Source of the DNA: Trueperaceae bacterium
GTDB taxonomy: Bacteria; Deinococcota; Deinococci; Deinococcales; Trueperaceae
DNA: 64,000 bases
Assembly: GCA_011389865.1 (NCBI GenBank)
Contig: JAABTL010000012.1
Coordinates: forward strand, 1-64,000
Reading direction: 5' to 3'
Shown: positions 54,301 to 64,000 of the stretch, in pieces
Position numbering within the stretch: position 1 is the first letter of the stretch
Layout of the letters: every line of letters begins with the position of its first letter
Program-made: the position numbers and the translations under genes
The notes under the pieces: model-generated
The model's input: the letters and a program-made list of their open reading frames with translations, nothing else
Database searches by the model: none
Told to the model about the DNA's origin: nothing

Positions 54301-54505
54301 GGGACACCTCCTTGGGAATCCCTCGCGGGCGCGTCACGGCGCGTCCGCGCGAGTCGGTGTTCATCTTGGGCAAGGCTCGATGACCGACGGATGACCGGGC
54401 GACGACCGGCGATCGCCCGACCGCGACGGCCGACTGGCGCATGGCACACCCGCTCGCGCGCCTCAGGCACCCAGGGCGGCGGCCGCGGATGTGAAGTTCG
54501 TGAGG

Positions 54506-54534
54506 TTGACGGCTGGCATCAACAGGCGGATACT
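54506..54534 (+). promoter_or_regulatory. sigma-70-like promoter upstream of the subtilase
   Basis: TTGACG-N17-GATACT. Confidence 0.5.
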
Positions 54535-54613
54535 CGGAGGCAAGGACAAATGTCCCTACCGCCTGGAGCGCCCGGCCACGGCCGGACCCACGTCGGTACG
54601 AGGAGGGCAACCG

Positions 54614-56374
54614 ATGCCGAGCATGCTTCGAACGCTTCTCGCAGCCGCCAGCTTGGTGCTGGTCCTGGTCGCCTGTTCGGGTGAGCCCCTGGCGGGCCCG
54701 ACCGGCCAGCCCGGGGTCGAGCCGCTCACGACCGACGCCCAGGCAGGTCAGCCCATCCCCGACCGCTACATCGTGGTGTTCCGCGACGGCGTCGCCAACG
54801 GCCGGGCACTCACCACGCAGATGGTCCGCGGCGCCGGCGGGGAGCTGCACTTCAGCTACGAGCACGCCCTGAACGGCTTCGCGGCCACGCTGCCGGCGCA
54901 GGCGATCGCCGGCATCAGCCGCAACCCGAACGTCGCGTACGTCGAGCAGGACAGCGTGGTGACGATCGTCGGTACGCAGAGCGACGCCACCTGGGGACTG
55001 GATCGGATCGATCAGCGGGACCCGGATCTCGATGGGGTCTATAGCTTCAACGCAACCGGTGCCGGCGTCACCGCCTACGTGATCGACACCGGCATTCTCG
55101 GTGACCACGTCGACTTCGGCGGTCGCGTGCGCCAGGGCTTCGACGCGATCGGCCGCCGCGGCTCGGGCAGCGACTGCAACGGTCACGGCACGCACGTCGC
55201 CGGCACGGTCGGCGGCTCGGAGTGGGGCGTCGCCAAAGAGGTCAGCCTCGTGGCGGTCCGCGTCCTCGACTGCCGCGGCTCGGGCTCCTACTCCGGCGTC
55301 ATCGCCGGCATCGACTGGGTCACGGGCGACGCGGTGGGCCCCAGCGTCGCGAACATGTCGCTCGGTGGCGGCTACAGCGAAGCGGTCAACGACGCCGTGG
55401 CCACCTCCGTGGCAGCCGGCGTGGTGTACGCGGTGGCCGCCGGCAACGACGGCGCCGACGCCTGCACCAAGTCGCCCGCCAGCACACCCACCGCGCTCAC
55501 CATCGCGGCGACCGACAGCAGCGACACGCGCACCTCTTGGTCCAACTACGGCAGCTGCGTCGACCTCTTCGCCCCCGGCGCGGCCATCACCTCGGCCTGG
55601 CACACCAGCACGACGGCGACCAACACCATCAGCGGCACCTCGATGGCCGCTCCGCACGTCGCCGGCGCCGCGGCGCTGATCCTCTCCTCGACCCCTGACG
55701 CCACCCCGGCGGAGGTGGGGGCCGCCCTCGAGGGCAGCGCCACGACGGGCATCGTCAACTCGGCGGGCAGCGGCTCGCCCAACCTCCTGCTGTACACCGG
55801 CGACGGCTCCACGACGCCCCCGCCCAACGCGTCGCCCACGGCCGACTTCGCCGTCTCCTGTACCGACCTGAGCTGCACCTTCACGGACGCAAGCAGTGAC
55901 GGCGACGGCTGGATCGCCGGCTGGAGCTGGAACTTCGGTGACGGAGGAACGTCGAACGAGCAGAACCCCGCTCACAGCTTTGAGTCCGCTGGCACGTACA
56001 CCGTGCAGCTGACGGTGACCGACGACGACGGCGCGCTCGACAGCGTCAGCAAGAACGTGAGCGTGACCTCCGGAGGCAGCGGCAGCGCCGACACCCTGGC
56101 GCCGACGATCGACGCCTGGTCGACGACCAACACCTCGGCCGGCCCCTGGACCCGCTACGACGTCAGCTGGAGCGTCTCAGACGAGACCGCCCTCGCCAGC
56201 GTCGTCGTCGAGGCCCTCGACGGGACCACCGTGGTCAACTCCGTCACCACGAGCGTCACCGGCACCTCCGCGAGCGGCGTCAGCTCCGTCCGCCACCGCG
56301 GCCCGATCACGGAGATCCGCTTGACGGTCGTCGACGCCGCGGGAAACGACGCGAGCCAGGCCACATCCTTCTAG
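54614..56374 (+). CDS. S8 subtilisin-like serine protease (aqualysin/proteinase K type) lipoprotein with PKD domain
   Basis: Lipobox VLVLVAC; I9 propeptide; triad motifs VIDTGI, NGHGTHVAGT, GTSMAAPHVAG; PKD WNFGDGGTSNEQNPAHSFESAGTYTVQLTVTD. Confidence 0.94.
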   Translation: MPSMLRTLLAAASLVLVLVACSGEPLAGPTGQPGVEPLTTDAQAGQPIPDRYIVVFRDGVANGRALTTQMVRGAGGELHFSYEHALNGFAATLPAQAIAGISRNPNVAYVEQDSVVTIVGTQSDATWGLDRIDQRDPDLDGVYSFNATGAGVTAYVIDTGILGDHVDFGGRVRQGFDAIGRRGSGSDCNGHGTHVAGTVGGSEWGVAKEVSLVAVRVLDCRGSGSYSGVIAGIDWVTGDAVGPSVANMSLGGGYSEAVNDAVATSVAAGVVYAVAAGNDGADACTKSPASTPTALTIAATDSSDTRTSWSNYGSCVDLFAPGAAITSAWHTSTTATNTISGTSMAAPHVAGAAALILSSTPDATPAEVGAALEGSATTGIVNSAGSGSPNLLLYTGDGSTTPPPNASPTADFAVSCTDLSCTFTDASSDGDGWIAGWSWNFGDGGTSNEQNPAHSFESAGTYTVQLTVTDDDGALDSVSKNVSVTSGGSGSADTLAPTIDAWSTTNTSAGPWTRYDVSWSVSDETALASVVVEALDGTTVVNSVTTSVTGTSASGVSSVRHRGPITEIRLTVVDAAGNDASQATSF

Positions 56375-56678: not shown

Positions 56679-57680
56679 CTAGCGTGGCTCGAACCCCAAC
56701 CACCGCCGAGCGTTCCCCCGCAACAGCAGGTCCACGTCGGCGTCCTGCAGCCCGGCTTGGCGCAGCATCCCGGCCACCGTCGTCGGGATGTGGGCGAAGC
56801 CGCCGGCGTCGGGAAACCCGTAGGCGGGCCAGTACGACTTGCGCGCGAGGTCGCCGCTCAACAGAACCTGCCCCAGGTGGCCCCCCGACGCCAGGTCCAC
56901 GACGAGCCGGACCCGCGCCTCGTCCGACAGGTACTTGCTCTTGGCGAACTGATCGAGCCCGATGTTGACGCCGGTGGCGGCGAGCTCGAGCAGGAAGGCC
57001 AGCTCGGGCCGGAAGTCGCAGTGGCCGATCAGCACCTGGTGCGGCGGCACGCCGCCGTCGACGAGGTGCATGGCCTGCTCGAGGGCCCAGGTCGCGCGCT
57101 CGGTGTGCGTGCCGATCGGCGCGCCCGTGGCATGGTGCGCAGCGACGGCGGCGTCGAGCACGCGCCGCTCTTGCGGTCCGGGACCGTCGCGACCGGTCGA
57201 CGCCTTGATCAACCCCGCCCGCGCCGCCGGCAGCCCCGTCTCCGCCACCGCGTCACGCGCCACCCGGGCGCCCGACGCCGACAGCGCCACCCGCTCGGGC
57301 TCCAGGTACGGCACGGCGGCCACCGTCACCTCGGCGATCATCCAGGCGACGATCTCCTCGTCGCTGTGGCGCTCCACGATCGGATCGGCGAAGCGTCCCT
57401 TGTTGAAGCCGGTGGCCGCGACCACGTGCACGCCGCCGGCCCGCGACACCCGCTGCAGGGCGGCCGTGTCGCGGCCGTAGTCGACGGTGGTCATCTCCAC
57501 CACGGCGCCGCCGCCGGCCTCCCGGAACGACGCGAGCTCGCGCACGGCGGCGTCCTCGTCGTCGAGGCGCAGGTCGGCGTCGAGCACGTCGGCCGGTGGC
57601 CGCGCGATCAGGTGTTCGTGCCCGAGCGTCAGCCCGAGTTCCTCGGGGGCGATGTCGCCCAGGACGGTCCGGATGATCAC
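56679..57680 (-). CDS. phosphotriesterase-family metal-dependent hydrolase/lactonase
   Basis: LGHEHL (HxH), LIKAST (bridging Lys), IGTHTE, IGHCD, LSGDLAR; GTGA overlap with upstream gene. Confidence 0.88.
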   Translation of the reverse strand: MIIRTVLGDIAPEELGLTLGHEHLIARPPADVLDADLRLDDEDAAVRELASFREAGGGAVVEMTTVDYGRDTAALQRVSRAGGVHVVAATGFNKGRFADPIVERHSDEEIVAWMIAEVTVAAVPYLEPERVALSASGARVARDAVAETGLPAARAGLIKASTGRDGPGPQERRVLDAAVAAHHATGAPIGTHTERATWALEQAMHLVDGGVPPHQVLIGHCDFRPELAFLLELAATGVNIGLDQFAKSKYLSDEARVRLVVDLASGGHLGQVLLSGDLARKSYWPAYGFPDAGGFAHIPTTVAGMLRQAGLQDADVDLLLRGNARRWLGFEPR

Positions 57681-58975
57681 AGCAGCGCTCCCATCGCAAC
57701 GAGCCGCTCGCGCACCATGCCCACGTCGACGCCGCGAAGGTCGCCGCCGGTCGCCAGCGCGGCGGCCACGCCGGCCGCCTGACCCATGGCCATGCACTGC
57801 GCCATGGAGCGCACCGAGGCGTGCGCGTCGTGCGACGCGGACAGGCAGCGTCCGGCCACGACGACGCCCTCGATCTCCCGCGGCAGCAGGCAGCGGTAGG
57901 GGATGTCGTAGGTCTCCCCGTCCGGTACGTACTCCCAGCGCGTGTCGCCGCCCGCGTGGTGCTCCTCGATCGGCGCCCCGCAGCGGGCGACGGCGTCGGG
58001 GAACCTCCGCGCCGCCAGGACGTCGTCGCGGGTCAGCCAGTACTCGCCGCGGACACGGCGGCTCTCGCGCACGCCGATCTGCGTGGCGAGCCCGCTGAGG
58101 TGGCCGCGCTCGTAGCCGGGGACGCGGTCGCGCAGGAAGCGGCCGTACTCGAACGCCTGGCGCCGGCCCTCGCGCTCGGCGCGCGAGAGCTGCTCGGGGT
58201 CGGTGGCGTCGACGCCGGCGACGCGCGTCATGTTCGTGTGCATGACGTGGGGGAAGGGCGTGATGTGGGCGCTCCCCTCGCGCCGGGGGAGGTCGTAGTC
58301 GCCGCCTTCGGCCGCCTCGGTCATGCGTGCCCACAGCTCGGCCTTGGGGAAGGCCCGCGCCGCGTCGACGTCGACGTCGATCATCCGGAAGGTGGTGGTG
58401 AGCGACTGGGCGGTCCCGTCGGCGCCGGCGTCCTCGAAGGGCCCCCCGGCACGGGCCACCACGTCGGCGTCCCCCGATGCGTCGACCACCGCCCGGGCCC
58501 GGATGGCGCGCAGCCCCTGCTTGGTGGCGATCACCGCGCCGGTCACGCGGTCGCCCTCCTTCAGGACGTCGACGAAGGTGACGTGGTGCAGCACCCTCAC
58601 GCCGGCCTCCCCCGTCAGCTCGTCCCACACCAGCTTGAGGGTGTCGGGGTCGTAGGTGTAGCCGGCGCCGGCGCCGTAGGTGTTCGGCCGTTTCAGCACC
58701 ATGCCGCGCCGCTCCAGGCCGGCGATGACCCGGTCGGGCACGCCGCCCACCACCTTGCGCTCGACGCTCCCGGGCGTGAAGAAGCCGTAGAAGGTGTCGA
58801 GCACCATCGCGCCGGTGCCGCCGAGGAAGCCGTAGCGCTCGATCAGCAGGACGTCGGCGCCCTGCTCGGCGGCGGCCACCGCCGCGCTGGCGCCGGCCGA
58901 TCCGCCGCCGACCACCAGGACGTCGCAGGCGTAGGCCAGCGGCGCGCTCCAGGCGAGCTCGATGCGCCCGCTCAC
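57677..58975 (-). CDS. FAD-dependent oxidoreductase
   Basis: CDVLVVGGGSAGASAAVAAAEQGADVLLIERYGFLGGTGAMV...ARAVVDASGDADVVARAG...VVVAGRCLSASHDAHASVR. Confidence 0.88.
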   Translation of the reverse strand: MSGRIELAWSAPLAYACDVLVVGGGSAGASAAVAAAEQGADVLLIERYGFLGGTGAMVLDTFYGFFTPGSVERKVVGGVPDRVIAGLERRGMVLKRPNTYGAGAGYTYDPDTLKLVWDELTGEAGVRVLHHVTFVDVLKEGDRVTGAVIATKQGLRAIRARAVVDASGDADVVARAGGPFEDAGADGTAQSLTTTFRMIDVDVDAARAFPKAELWARMTEAAEGGDYDLPRREGSAHITPFPHVMHTNMTRVAGVDATDPEQLSRAEREGRRQAFEYGRFLRDRVPGYERGHLSGLATQIGVRESRRVRGEYWLTRDDVLAARRFPDAVARCGAPIEEHHAGGDTRWEYVPDGETYDIPYRCLLPREIEGVVVAGRCLSASHDAHASVRSMAQCMAMGQAAGVAAALATGGDLRGVDVGMVRERLVAMGALL

Positions 58976-59745
58976 CCCGCCACGCTCCAGCCGCCCGCCA
59001 CCTCGAGGACCGTTCCCGTCACGAAGCGCGCCTCGTCGGAGGCGAGGTAGAGGATGGCGTCGGCCACGTCGCCCGGCTCGCCGGGCGCGCCGGTCAGGGG
59101 CTGCCGCTCGCGCAGGTACGCCACGATCGCCGGGTCGCCCTGGGCGCGGGCGCTCATCGGCGTGGCGATCAGGCCCGGCGCGACGGCGTTCACCCGCACG
59201 CCATCACGGGCGTAGAAGGCCGCCATGCTGCGCGTCAGCGCGTCGATGGCGCCCTTCGAGGCGGCGTAGGCGTGGGTGGCGAAGTGGCTCGCGTTCGGGG
59301 CGCTGGCGAGCACCGAACTGGTGTTGACGATGGCACCGCGCCGCTGCGCCAGCATCGGCGGCAGGGCGAAGTGGCACACGAGGAAGGTGGAGCGGGCGTT
59401 GTTGCGCATGACCGCGTCCCACCCCGCGGGCGTGGCCTCGTGGACGGGGCCGTCGCCGTAGCGCCGGCCCGAGAGGCCGGCCACGTTGACGAGCACGTCG
59501 AGCCCGCCGAGCGCCGCGAGCGCCCTCTGCACCACGTCCCCCGCGTCCGCCTCGTCGGCGAGGTCGCCCGCCGCGCCGACGACGTCGGGCAGCTCCGCGC
59601 GCAGGGCGTCGACGCGCCCGGCGTCGCGGTCGGCGACGAACACGCGGGCGCCCTCGTCGAGGCAGCGCCGGGCCACGGCCAAGCCGATGCCCGACGCGCC
59701 GGTCACGAGCACGCGACGGCCCGCCAGGCGGCCCTCAGCCGCCAT
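58972..59745 (-). CDS. short-chain dehydrogenase/reductase
   Basis: VLVTGASGIGLAVARRCLDEGA, NVAG, S...YAASKGAIDALTRS, C-terminal DVADAILYLASDEARFVTG. Confidence 0.92.
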   Translation of the reverse strand: MAAEGRLAGRRVLVTGASGIGLAVARRCLDEGARVFVADRDAGRVDALRAELPDVVGAAGDLADEADAGDVVQRALAALGGLDVLVNVAGLSGRRYGDGPVHEATPAGWDAVMRNNARSTFLVCHFALPPMLAQRRGAIVNTSSVLASAPNASHFATHAYAASKGAIDALTRSMAAFYARDGVRVNAVAPGLIATPMSARAQGDPAIVAYLRERQPLTGAPGEPGDVADAILYLASDEARFVTGTVLEVAGGWSVAG

Positions 59746-60568
59746 AGACCACCTTCACGCGGTCGCGGTAGTCGTCGTAGGTCGCCTCGAAGCGTTCGCG
59801 GGACGCCTCGGCGCCGATCTCGTACGCCGACGCCAGCACGAGCGGTGGCTGGCCGCGGGCCGCCAGGTCCTGCGCCACCAGCACCTTGAGCGCGTTGACC
59901 ACCGCGGTGTTGCCGATCGTGGAGCCGGGCCCCACGCGGGCATCGACGCCCGGGACGTCGACCATGCTGTCGCCGGGGAGCGCGCAGTTGTCGATGACGA
60001 GGTCGGCGATGTCGGCGAGCTTGCGCCCGGAGCTGTGCTCGGAGGGGATCAGCGCCGAGTAGCTGGCCGCGATGACGGCGATCACCGTGAGCCCGCGCGC
60101 CTTGGCGCCCAGCGCCACGTCGACGGGCACGCCCTTGTTGCCCGATGTCGAGAACACGATCATCACGTCGTAGTCGCGGAACACGAAGTTGTCGAGGATG
60201 GGCTCGCCCAGCCCCTCCATCCGCTCGATGGCCATCGCCTGGCGTTGGCCGTTCGCGCCCACCACCTGCGTGTGGTTCGTCAGCGACAACTCGACGATGG
60301 GATGGAAGCCGGGGAAGCTGCCGTAGCGCGGGAAGACCTCCTCCACCGCCATGCGCGAGTGGCCCGAGCCGAAGAGGTGGACGAGGCCACGGCGCGAGAT
60401 CGACTCGGCGCACAGCGCGGCGGCCCGCCGGATGGCGGGCAGCTGCGTGTCGCGCACGCGCTGCAGGATCCGCTCCGCCTCGGCCAGGTAGGTGAGGGCG
60501 ACGTCGGGCGTGTCGGCGGCTGGCTGCGCGTCGCGCACGGGCGCGTCGGATCGATCGGGATGGGACAT
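59735..60568 (-). CDS. SIS-domain protein (UPF0309-like phosphosugar binding)
   Basis: GLVHLFGSGHSRMAVEEVFPRYGSFPGFHPI...VMIVFSTSGNKGVPVDVALGAKARGLTVIAVI; SD gaggagg. Confidence 0.85.
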   Translation of the reverse strand: MSHPDRSDAPVRDAQPAADTPDVALTYLAEAERILQRVRDTQLPAIRRAAALCAESISRRGLVHLFGSGHSRMAVEEVFPRYGSFPGFHPIVELSLTNHTQVVGANGQRQAMAIERMEGLGEPILDNFVFRDYDVMIVFSTSGNKGVPVDVALGAKARGLTVIAVIAASYSALIPSEHSSGRKLADIADLVIDNCALPGDSMVDVPGVDARVGPGSTIGNTAVVNALKVLVAQDLAARGQPPLVLASAYEIGAEASRERFEATYDDYRDRVKVVYGG

Positions 60569-60686
60569 GCGTCCTCCTCGGGGTTCGCGGTCGGCCGGTC
60601 GTGCCCGGCGCGCGGGCGACCGCCGATCTCACCGCGCGCCGTGGAGCACGGCGAGCGCCATGGGTCGCGGCCAGTATAGTCGCCGC

Positions 60687-61676
60687 ATGCACACGCCGCA
60701 GGGCGTCACCGAGGGACCTTCCGTGATCGGCGTCGACATCGGCGGCACCAACGTCAAGCTGGGGCGGTACCGGCCGGGCGCCCGGGAGCTCGAGGGCTTC
60801 CGGAGCCTGCCCACGGGCGCCGGGCGGCCGCACGAGGCGGTCCTCGGCGACCTCGCCGCCGCGATCCGTGAGCTGGCGCTCGAGGGCGGGTCGGCGCCGG
60901 CGGGCCTCGGGGTCGGCATCCCGGCCACGCTCTCGCGCGACGGCCGCGTCGAGGTGCTGCCCAACTTCGCGCCCGGCTGGCGCGGCGTGGCCGTGGCGGA
61001 CTGGCTGACCGAGGCCACGGGCCTCCCGGCGGTGATCATCAACGACGCCCGCGCCTTCACGCTCGCGGAGGCGCGGGCCGGCGCGGCAGCGGACGTGGAT
61101 TCGGCGTTCGGCGTCACGCTCGGCACGGGGGTCGGCGGCGGCCTGGTGCTCGGCGGCCGGCTCCACCTCGGCTACTCGGGCAACGCGGGCGAGTTCGGGC
61201 ACCACGTGTTCGACCCGCACGGCCCGCGCTGCGGCTGCGGCAGCCACGGCTGCGTCGAGACGTACGCGTCGGCGCCCGCGCTGGTCGCGAGCCTCATGCG
61301 ACCCTTCGTGCAGGGCATGGTGCCGGCGCTGGTGCGCCTGGCCGACGGCCGGCTCGACGCCGTCACGCCGGCACTGATCGCGCGGGCGGCGGAGGAGGGC
61401 GACCCCATCTGCCGTGAGGCGCTCGACCGGGTGGCGCTGGTGCTCGGGGTCGCCCTCGCGAACGTCACGACGCTGGTGTCGGTCGAGCGGATCGTGATCG
61501 GCGGCGGCATGGCGGGGTTGGGCGAGACGCTGCTCACACCGCTGCGGCGCACCCTGGCGGCGCACGCGCCGACCGCGGGCGACCGCCTGCCCGAGGTGGT
61601 GCCGGCGAGCCTCGGCGCCCAGGCCGGCAGCCTGGGGGCCGCGCTGCACGCGGCCGACGCGCTCGGGCCGACCTGA
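60687..61676 (+). CDS. ROK-family sugar kinase
   Basis: IGVDIGGTNVKLGRY, GTGVGGGLVLGG, GEFGHHVFDPHGPRCGCGSHGCVETYAS (ROK Zn motif); TATAGT-N6-ATG. Confidence 0.93.
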   Translation: MHTPQGVTEGPSVIGVDIGGTNVKLGRYRPGARELEGFRSLPTGAGRPHEAVLGDLAAAIRELALEGGSAPAGLGVGIPATLSRDGRVEVLPNFAPGWRGVAVADWLTEATGLPAVIINDARAFTLAEARAGAAADVDSAFGVTLGTGVGGGLVLGGRLHLGYSGNAGEFGHHVFDPHGPRCGCGSHGCVETYASAPALVASLMRPFVQGMVPALVRLADGRLDAVTPALIARAAEEGDPICREALDRVALVLGVALANVTTLVSVERIVIGGGMAGLGETLLTPLRRTLAAHAPTAGDRLPEVVPASLGAQAGSLGAALHAADALGPT

Positions 61677-61828
61677 CCCAGCATCTGCCCCGGCCCATGC
61701 GGCCGCCCGCGCGGTAGAATCAATTCCGTTCACGAGGCTAACGACGATCGCCGTCGGAAAGGAGTGGTGTGCGAGAGGCACGGGCTACGTTTTCCCCTAC
61801 GTCCCACCCAGCACCGAGAGAGGACCTC

Positions 61829-62764
61829 ATGCTCAAGAGACTTGCCACGACCCTCACGACCGTCTTCGTGCTCAGCTTCGCCATGTCGGCGATGGCGCAG
61901 AGCACGTTCTTCTGGATCTCCCACGGCGACCCCGCCGACCCCGTCTGGACCTACTTCCTGCAGGGCGCCGAGCTCTGGGCCGAATCCACCGGCAACACGG
62001 TCAACACCTCGTTCCACAGCGGTGACGTCCCCTCGCATCAGGAGGCGTTCCGGGCCGCCATCACGTCGAACGCCGCGGGCATCGTCAGCAGCACGCCCGA
62101 CCCGGGCACGCTCAACGAGGTCATCCAAGAGGCACACGCCGTCGGCATCCCGGTCGTGATCATCAACACCGAGGACGCTCAGAGCGGCCGTGACGCCTAC
62201 GTCGGCGGCGACACCGAAGAGATCGGCCGCCGCTGGGCCCAGTACCTCGTCGACAACGACTTCGTCGGCTCCGGCGACTTCGTCTGGCTCCCCGTCGAGG
62301 TCCCCGGCGCCACCTACCAGGTCCTGGCGACGAACGGCATCTCGAGCGTGTTCGATCCGCTCGGCATCACCTACGAGGTCACCGAGGCCAAGCTCGACCA
62401 GGCCGAGATCATCACCCGCATGTCGGACTACCTGCTCGCCAACCGCGACCGCATCGACGCGATCATCGGCCTCGGCGACCTGGTCACCGGCAGCATCGCG
62501 CGCGTCTTCGACCAGGTCGGCGTCGCCCCCGGCGAGATCCCCGTGGTGGGCTGGGGCAACTCCGCCGACACCGCCCAAGAGGTCCTCGACGGCTACGTGA
62601 ACGCCGCCATGTGGCAAGACCCGCAGGCCACGAGCTTCATGGGCCTCTCGGTCGCCGCCATGGCCGCCGCCGGCATCCCGCCGGGCTTCGACATCATCGT
62701 CGGCACGCTCTACGAGGCCGACACCGCCCAGGTCTACCTCGACATCATGACGGACGGCCAGTAA
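61829..62764 (+). CDS. periplasmic sugar-binding protein (RbsB/type-1 PBP family)
   Basis: Signal peptide MLKRLATTLTTVFVLSFAMSAMAQ; FRAAITSNAAGIVSSTPDPGTLNEVIQEAHAVGIPVVIINTEDA; SD gagaggacc. Confidence 0.88.
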   Translation: MLKRLATTLTTVFVLSFAMSAMAQSTFFWISHGDPADPVWTYFLQGAELWAESTGNTVNTSFHSGDVPSHQEAFRAAITSNAAGIVSSTPDPGTLNEVIQEAHAVGIPVVIINTEDAQSGRDAYVGGDTEEIGRRWAQYLVDNDFVGSGDFVWLPVEVPGATYQVLATNGISSVFDPLGITYEVTEAKLDQAEIITRMSDYLLANRDRIDAIIGLGDLVTGSIARVFDQVGVAPGEIPVVGWGNSADTAQEVLDGYVNAAMWQDPQATSFMGLSVAAMAAAGIPPGFDIIVGTLYEADTAQVYLDIMTDGQ

Positions 62765-62894
62765 TCGCTAGCCGCCATCTCCGTTCGTCCGTGCGCGGGC
62801 CTCGCCTGCGCACGGACGAACGTCCTGGACCCCGCCGCTGCCCGAGCGACGCCGCCCCGACGGCGCGCCTTGCCCCCCTTCCCCGAAAGGGCTC

Positions 62895-63896
62895 ATGAAC
62901 ACGACGATGCGCCCCGGTTCGATCCTCGTTCGGCGGTTGGTCGCCACCCCGGAGTTCCTGCCGTTCACCCTGGTGGCGGTGCTGATCACCGTCTTCGCGG
63001 TCCTCACCCCCAACTTCTTGTCGCAGGGCAACATCAGCAACCTGCTCGCGTTCACGCCCGAGCTCGGCATGATCGCGCTCGGCATGACGGTCCTCATGAC
63101 CTCGGGCGAGTTCGACCTGTCGGTCGGCTCCGTGTTCGGCTTCACCCCGGTCCTGATGTGGACGCTGTTCAACGAGGGCGTCGCGCCCCTCGAGGTGTCG
63201 CTCGTCATCGCGCTGATCGTGGCCGTCGGCATCGGCTTCGTCAACGGCTGGTTCGTCACGCGCCTGCGGATCCCCTCGTTCCTGGTCACCCTCGGCATGA
63301 TGATGACCATCCGCGGCGTCGCGCTCTACACGACCAGCGGCTTCCCGCAGCGCACCTGGCGCGCCGAGTCCTGGATCATGGACCTCGTCGCCGGCACCTT
63401 CTACATCGGCGAGTTCCGCCTCTACGCCTCACTATTTTGGTTCATCGGCTTCGCTCTGATCCTCGGCTACCTGATGACGCAGTCCCGCATCGGCAACTGG
63501 ATCCAGGCGGCGGGCGGCAACCCCGTCTCCGCACGCGCCCGCGGCGTGCGCGTCAGCCTGACCAAGACCTGGCTCTTCATGCTGACCTCGTTCCTGGCCG
63601 CCTACGCCGGCATCACCAGCTCGATCCGCGTGTCGGCGGCGAACCCCAACAGCGGCACGGGCTACGAGCTCGAGGTGATCGCCATGGTCGTCATCGGCGG
63701 CACCGCCCTCGCCGGCGGCCGCGGCACGATCCTCGGCACCGTGCTCGGGGTCCTCATGCTGCGCATGATGCGCAACGGCATCGTGCTGATCGGCGTGCCC
63801 GGCCTGGCGTACAACATCTTCATCGGGGTGACGATCCTCGGCATGATGGCGCTGCAGTCGTACCTCGCCCGCCGGCACCCCACGGGGTCGGGCTGA
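62895..63896 (+). CDS. sugar ABC transporter permease (RbsC family)
   Basis: TPELGMIALGMTVLMTSGEFDLSVGSVFGFTP...RIPSFLVTLGMMMTIRGVALY...ALAGGRGTILGTVLGVLML. Confidence 0.92.
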   Translation: MNTTMRPGSILVRRLVATPEFLPFTLVAVLITVFAVLTPNFLSQGNISNLLAFTPELGMIALGMTVLMTSGEFDLSVGSVFGFTPVLMWTLFNEGVAPLEVSLVIALIVAVGIGFVNGWFVTRLRIPSFLVTLGMMMTIRGVALYTTSGFPQRTWRAESWIMDLVAGTFYIGEFRLYASLFWFIGFALILGYLMTQSRIGNWIQAAGGNPVSARARGVRVSLTKTWLFMLTSFLAAYAGITSSIRVSAANPNSGTGYELEVIAMVVIGGTALAGGRGTILGTVLGVLMLRMMRNGIVLIGVPGLAYNIFIGVTILGMMALQSYLARRHPTGSG

Positions 63897-63897
63897 C

Positions 63898-64000
63898 ATG
63901 GCCACCGACCTGGTACGCATGGAGGGCATCGCCAAGTCGTACGGTCCCGTGACCGCGCTCGACGGCGTCGACTTCTCCGTCCGCGAGAACGAGATCGTGG
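63898..64000 (+). CDS. sugar ABC transporter ATP-binding protein, 5' fragment (window edge)
   Basis: MATDLVRMEGIAKSYGPVTALDGVDFSVRENEIV; start 1 nt after the permease stop. Confidence 0.8.
   Translation, partial: MATDLVRMEGIAKSYGPVTALDGVDFSVRENEIV

Follow-up and report, generated by a model that had tools for sequence, protein, structure and literature searches.

The end of the window (a stretch of 64,000 nucleotides, C3:1-64000, of a 3.05-Mb draft genome whose nearest named relatives are Trueperaceae) carries a divergent gene cluster, and bacteria of at least five phyla share its enzyme core. We tentatively propose that both arms of the cluster form one catabolic module. It would break down a 6-phosphosugar, possibly that of an amino sugar, by dehydration and oxidation in the manner of the Entner-Doudoroff pathway; we infer all of the reactions, their order and the substrate.

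Layout of the divergent cluster

Profile searches found all seven window genes at the places and in the families given by a sequence-only reading, with family scores well above the Pfam cut-offs. The features are:

56679..57680, minus strand: PTE, phosphotriesterase family, probable phospho-lactonase (PF02126, 166 bits, 1.7e-48; best solved match 3pnz, 2.3e-42)
57677..58975, minus strand: FAD-dependent oxidoreductase, FAD (PF12831, FAD_oxidored, 374 bits, 2e-111)
58972..59745, minus strand: short-chain dehydrogenase, SDR (PF13561, 201 bits, 2.2e-59)
59735..60568, minus strand: SIS, NF002805/PRK02947 family, NagS relative (SIS_2 PF13580, 138 bits; NF002805, 272 bits against a cut-off of 135; best solved match NagS 9eol, 1.2e-30)
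60675..60680, plus strand: -10-like TATAGT within the AGTATAGTCG block, conserved in four genomes
60687..61676, plus strand: ROK-family sugar kinase (PF00480, 193 bits, 1.1e-56; TIGR00744, 177 bits, below its cut-off of 260)
61829..62764, plus strand: sugar-binding protein (SBP) of a CUT2-type ABC importer (PF13407 Peripla_BP_4, 139 bits, 3.4e-40)
62895..63896, plus strand: ABC importer permease (PF02653 BPD_transp_2, 143 bits, 1.4e-41)
63898..64000, plus strand: ABC ATPase, 5' part in the window (whole gene C3:63898-64650, 250 aa)
C3:64659-65795, past the window edge: Gfo/Idh/MocA dehydrogenase, after the ABC ATPase

The window edge at 64 kb cuts the cluster, so that most of the ABC ATPase gene and the Gfo/Idh/MocA gene lie beyond it; the latter is followed by an apparent GNAT acetyltransferase and then an MFS transporter, both named by eye. 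The 11-nt overlap of SIS and SDR that had been read before was confirmed on the sequence, as was the GTGA at the FAD-PTE junction, and PTE thus starts at GTG 57680. The SDR-FAD junction had been read as ATGA and is in fact GTGA. The ROK start codon is ATG 60687. Also by eye, a subtilisin-like protease with a PKD-like repeat lies convergent with PTE at 54491-56374, and an apparent alternative (N-type) F1F0 ATPase operon lies downstream on the minus strand, at about 68.7-75 kb of C3 (L009:13672-20000).

The matches of the binding protein to Peripla_BP_4 and of the permease to BPD_transp_2 are CUT2 (Rbs-type) features. An Rbs-type importer had been proposed, and these two families are indeed matched, but the ATPase is not the tandem RbsA of about 500 aa: it has a single nucleotide-binding domain in its 250 aa and aligns to only the first half of RbsA-type models. 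Against curated family profiles, the binding protein reached no specific family at its cut-off, and a rhizopine or inositol importer was rejected (65 bits to NF052284, cut-off 420).

Between the two arms, AGTATAGTCG followed by three bases and CATG (60673-60689) is invariant upstream of ROK in four genomes. The TATAGT within it stops 6 nt short of the ROK start codon, a spacing compatible with a leaderless ROK mRNA. A scan of the divergent region with the sigma-70 consensus found no full promoter. On its opposite strand the conserved element contains TATACT, and it could serve both directions.

Conservation across genomes

The eight-gene divergent core (PTE-FAD-SDR-SIS versus ROK-SBP-permease-ATPase) is kept in three related Trueperaceae genomes, G002, G015 and G032, with a protein identity of about 70-91%; in G032, the contig stops inside FAD and PTE is out of view. 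In the G015 locus, a DegT/DnrJ-type sugar aminotransferase gene absent from the window cluster follows PTE (L017:10942-12258, 160 bits to PRK11706). At E 1e-40, SIS was found in 5 of the 61 genomes searched, the window genome included and one of the five being a distant copy, and its distribution is thus patchy. The distant SIS of G011 (42%) lies beside ROK and apparent GntR and CUT1 genes; PTE, FAD and SDR are all absent there, and this SIS was left out when inferring the module.

Of 80 SIS loci, 22 have SIS, SDR, FAD and PTE together, all four always on the same strand; the 22 come from Deinococcota, Pseudomonadota, Bacillota and Actinomycetota. The 80 loci were picked by SIS similarity from named genomes and many are closely related, so that 22 of 80 does not count independent events. 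Two Bacteroidota plasmids bear the same four genes. Because the core order recurs in the three related genomes and the four-enzyme set in these loci, a chance arrangement is excluded. On the SIS tree, the FAD+PTE label changes at least four times, counting well-supported branches, and Trueperaceae group with Devosiaceae with full support, which suggests transfer between phyla. Mirror-tree correlations were 0.51-0.71, values that relatedness alone could produce.

In Trueperaceae and Devosiaceae, ROK points away from the other enzyme genes; in eight Bacilli/Actinobacteria loci it shares their strand and lies within the SIS+SDR+FAD+PTE operon. The two arms are therefore taken as one module, which supports the earlier view of one pathway over both strands. 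As a rule, gene sets that hold together over five or more phyla encode a single pathway. The module gives the four subfamilies concerned (SIS, PF12831 flavoprotein, SDR and PTE) a shared context that can be tested. Isolates with the module include Paenibacillus, Bacillus tianshenii, Sutcliffiella, Arsenicitalea and Arthrobacter.

The SIS protein, the PTE and the oxidoreductases

The closest solved relative of SIS is NagS (SCO4393) of Streptomyces, a GlcNAc-6P dehydratase with 6P-chromogen I as its product, in which alanine variants of H53, R64, E94 and D179 are fully inactive (PMC12680351). All four residues, together with S54 and S119, are invariant in 81 of 81 proteins (the window SIS and 80 relatives). 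The sugar contacts of NagS are not kept: of the two backbone contacts, A65 is replaced by Tyr in 80 of 81 proteins and no protein has Gly at G227; the S91 position lies in an alignment gap; and at the N228 position, 77 of the 81 sequences carry one of eight residues, none of them Asn. Three NagS homologues from outside Streptomycetaceae showed no GlcNAc-6P activity, one of them being a Paenibacillus selenitireducens protein 25.7% identical to NagS (PMC12680351). P. selenitireducens has three proteins above the family cut-off, with identities to the NagS fragment of 25.1%, 33.2% and 31.4%, the first of which is the module SIS there (56% identity to the window SIS). Because 25.1% is so near the published value, it was very probably the module SIS of this species that proved inactive, and GlcNAc-6P is for that reason unlikely as the module substrate.

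The module SIS shares with NagS the SIS fold, the phosphate-binding serines and the four essential residues (PMC12680351), but differs in its replaced sugar-contact residues, in the inactivity on GlcNAc-6P of the probable module homologue and in its setting, a catabolic operon, while NagS lies beside dmdR1. The window SIS was accordingly rejected as a NagS ortholog on sugar contacts, identity and the published assay. Our reading is that SIS may apply the ring-opening and elimination machinery of NagS to another sugar; its catalytic residues may, however, be common to relatives that carry out other reactions, which would weigh against dehydration. Phosphosugar isomerisation or ether cleavage, proposed for SIS from sequence, is possible, but the nearest precedent is a dehydratase. 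The open-access literature yielded no paper on UPF0309 or COG4821.

The window PTE retains all of its metal ligands (H18, H20, K156, H189, H217 and D274, a binuclear HxH, K, H, H, D set); among its relatives, where aligned, the Asp ligand is kept in 24 of 24 and the remaining ligands in 26 of 26. Its solved matches are led by 3pnz, which we take to be Lmo2620, followed by E. coli Php and 3msr. With the phospho-furanose lactonases (3msr/3ovg of Mycoplasma; 3pnz) it has in common the PTE fold, the full set of ligands and an RK motif after the last of them, and it is probably a phospho-lactonase. It differs from them in that a hexose-derived rather than pentose-derived lactone is proposed for it, and it lies far under the cut-off of the phospho-furanose lactonase equivalog NF045706 (117 bits against 630). 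Mycoplasma members of the family hydrolyse 1,4-lactone-5-phosphates, according to a passage of PMC10971088 that cites Korczynska 2014. A metallo-beta-lactamase-fold protein weakly like L-ascorbate-6-phosphate lactonase lies near SIS in two Bacillota loci and most of the Rhodothermales loci, where PTE is absent; it is possibly a replacement lactonase.

For the FAD enzyme, structure comparison of a model (pLDDT 82.6, pTM 0.87) returned only generic flavoproteins, at TM below 0.5. One C1 oxidation suffices for the proposed route, and with SDR and FAD both present, often with Gfo/Idh too, at least one enzyme is left without a part in it, which counts against the route.

A possible route and its alternatives

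In the proposed route, the ABC system would bring the sugar in and ROK would phosphorylate it. SIS would then open the ring of the sugar phosphate and eliminate the 3-hydroxyl by a NagS-type dehydration, the 3-deoxy product being a C2-C3 enamide for an N-acetylated sugar and a 2-keto aldehyde otherwise. Oxidation at C1 by SDR and/or the FAD enzyme (or Gfo/Idh) would give a phosphorylated lactone, to be opened by PTE; any acetamido group would be lost via NagA, RidA or spontaneous hydrolysis, and the resulting 2-keto-3-deoxy phosphoaldonate would be cleaved by a KDPG-type aldolase. The single such aldolase found in this genome is encoded at C5, unlinked to the module. As a general scheme, the import, phosphorylation, oxidation and lactone hydrolysis that had been suggested hold. 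The likeness to the Entner-Doudoroff pathway would lie in phosphorylation, C1 oxidation, a phospho-lactonase and a KDPG-type aldolase; the difference is that dehydration by SIS is proposed before oxidation, whereas Edd acts after lactone opening. The oxidative chitin (GlcNAc1A, ong) pathway of Pseudoalteromonas resembles the route in that amino-sugar carbon exits as KDPG, acetate and ammonia, but there C1 is oxidised extracellularly by an LPMO, phosphorylation comes last and other enzymes perform deacetylation and deamination; its abstract and section headings mention no SIS, PTE or ROK step (PMC9537276).

The recurrent neighbours offer clues to the sugar. A KDPG aldolase gene is found in 15 other loci, directly after PTE in Erysipelotrichaceae, and NagA in ten loci from two phyla (six Erysipelotrichaceae/Firmicutes and four Chloroflexi), all 5 of the 5 scored exceeding the curated cut-off. 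The window cluster contains no aldolase or NagA, which counts against the route, and no NagB, so that it does not look like a cluster for canonical GlcNAc catabolism; NagA and NagB are encoded elsewhere in this genome, and apart from an ABC ATPase match no module genes were found in its KDPG aldolase region or its two NagA regions. The presence of KDPG aldolase, NagA and NagB elsewhere in the genome permits the scheme. A RidA-like gene lies upstream of SDR-SIS in five Planctomycetes, and the Erysipelotrichaceae operon has NagA and a mannose-6-phosphate-isomerase-like cupin protein; at L047:15712-17970, NagA and a mannose-6-phosphate-isomerase-like protein share a single open frame, an apparent fusion. 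The beta-glucosidase BglX adjoins the module in Sutcliffiella and Persicobacter, as does GH1 in Paenibacillus, and genes for Gfo/Idh and a GMC oxidoreductase occur at the Haliscomenobacter locus. TIM barrels of xylose-isomerase-like type, encoded close to the module, weakly resemble ketose 3-epimerases, and a Fictibacillus GH35 protein is weakly like exo-glucosaminidase (198 of 1500 bits). A GH94-like neighbour in Paenibacillus was dropped as a clue, as it matches cellobiose phosphorylase weakly. No dedicated sugar-acid dehydratase is among the recurrent neighbours of the loci examined, and SIS therefore remains the dehydratase candidate. Taken together, the neighbours point partly to an amino sugar and partly to a beta-glucoside: of the candidates named earlier, the amino sugar is suggested by NagA in its ten loci, while nothing specific was found for an anhydrosugar or a uronate. 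The beta-glucosidase neighbours do not point to an amino sugar, and the probable inactivity of the P. selenitireducens module SIS on GlcNAc-6P counts against the scheme.

SIS proteins are commonly isomerases, deaminases or MurQ, and a serious though somewhat doubtful alternative is that this SIS too is an ordinary phosphosugar isomerase or an amino-sugar-phosphate deaminase (AgaS-like). The imported, phosphorylated sugar would be deacetylated where needed and converted to a ketose phosphate, with SDR, FAD, Gfo/Idh and PTE turning an unusual epimer, ketosugar or lactone into a form that SIS can use. NagA with the cupin in the Erysipelotrichaceae operon and the epimerase-like TIM barrels favour such a conversion, and the GlcNAc-6P inactivity is consistent with it; yet NagS, the closest relative with a known function, is a dehydratase whose four essential residues are all present in SIS, and the KDPG aldolase of the 15 other loci would be left without a role. 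Rather unlikely is a module for two linked substrates, in which a sugar would first be oxidised (by Gfo/Idh, SDR or FAD) and its lactone opened by PTE, while SIS and ROK would handle a second product, such as one freed from a beta-glucoside. FAD and PTE are indeed adjacent in 16 of the 23 loci with both, and lie away from SIS in L086, L093 and L099; the BglX and GH1 neighbours and the Haliscomenobacter oxidoreductases also fit. However, SIS and SDR are within 130 nt of each other in 20 of the 22 four-enzyme loci, tying oxidation tightly to SIS as well, and the core holds together across five phyla. That SIS is a true NagS, dehydrating GlcNAc-6P made from GlcNAc to 6P-chromogen I, is highly improbable: NagS is the best solved match and its four essential residues are kept, but A65, G227 and N228 are replaced, S91 is in a gap, the inactive P. 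selenitireducens protein (25.7% to NagS) is very probably the module SIS, and the genome already has NagA and NagB.

We found no paper describing this enzyme combination in the open-access literature, and to that extent the earlier view that it corresponds to no named pathway holds. It is possible, if doubtful, that the module represents a widespread undescribed route: a phosphorylated (amino) sugar would be dehydrated by a NagS-like SIS, the product would be oxidised to the phospho-lactone for PTE to open, and a KDPG-type aldolase would finish an Entner-Doudoroff-like pathway. If so, NagS-type chemistry, so far a Streptomyces toxicity route, would become a general catabolic reaction, and the NagS homologues outside Streptomyces that fail on GlcNAc-6P may dehydrate another sugar.

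Separately, an Agrobacterium vitis plasmid (L116, NZ_AP023270.1, 315-10278) carries a SIS homologue (38.5%) directly before an aldehyde dehydrogenase gene and preceded by genes for a nucleoside phosphorylase, a carbohydrate kinase and a BMP-type ABC importer; this homologue may act on a pentose phosphate.
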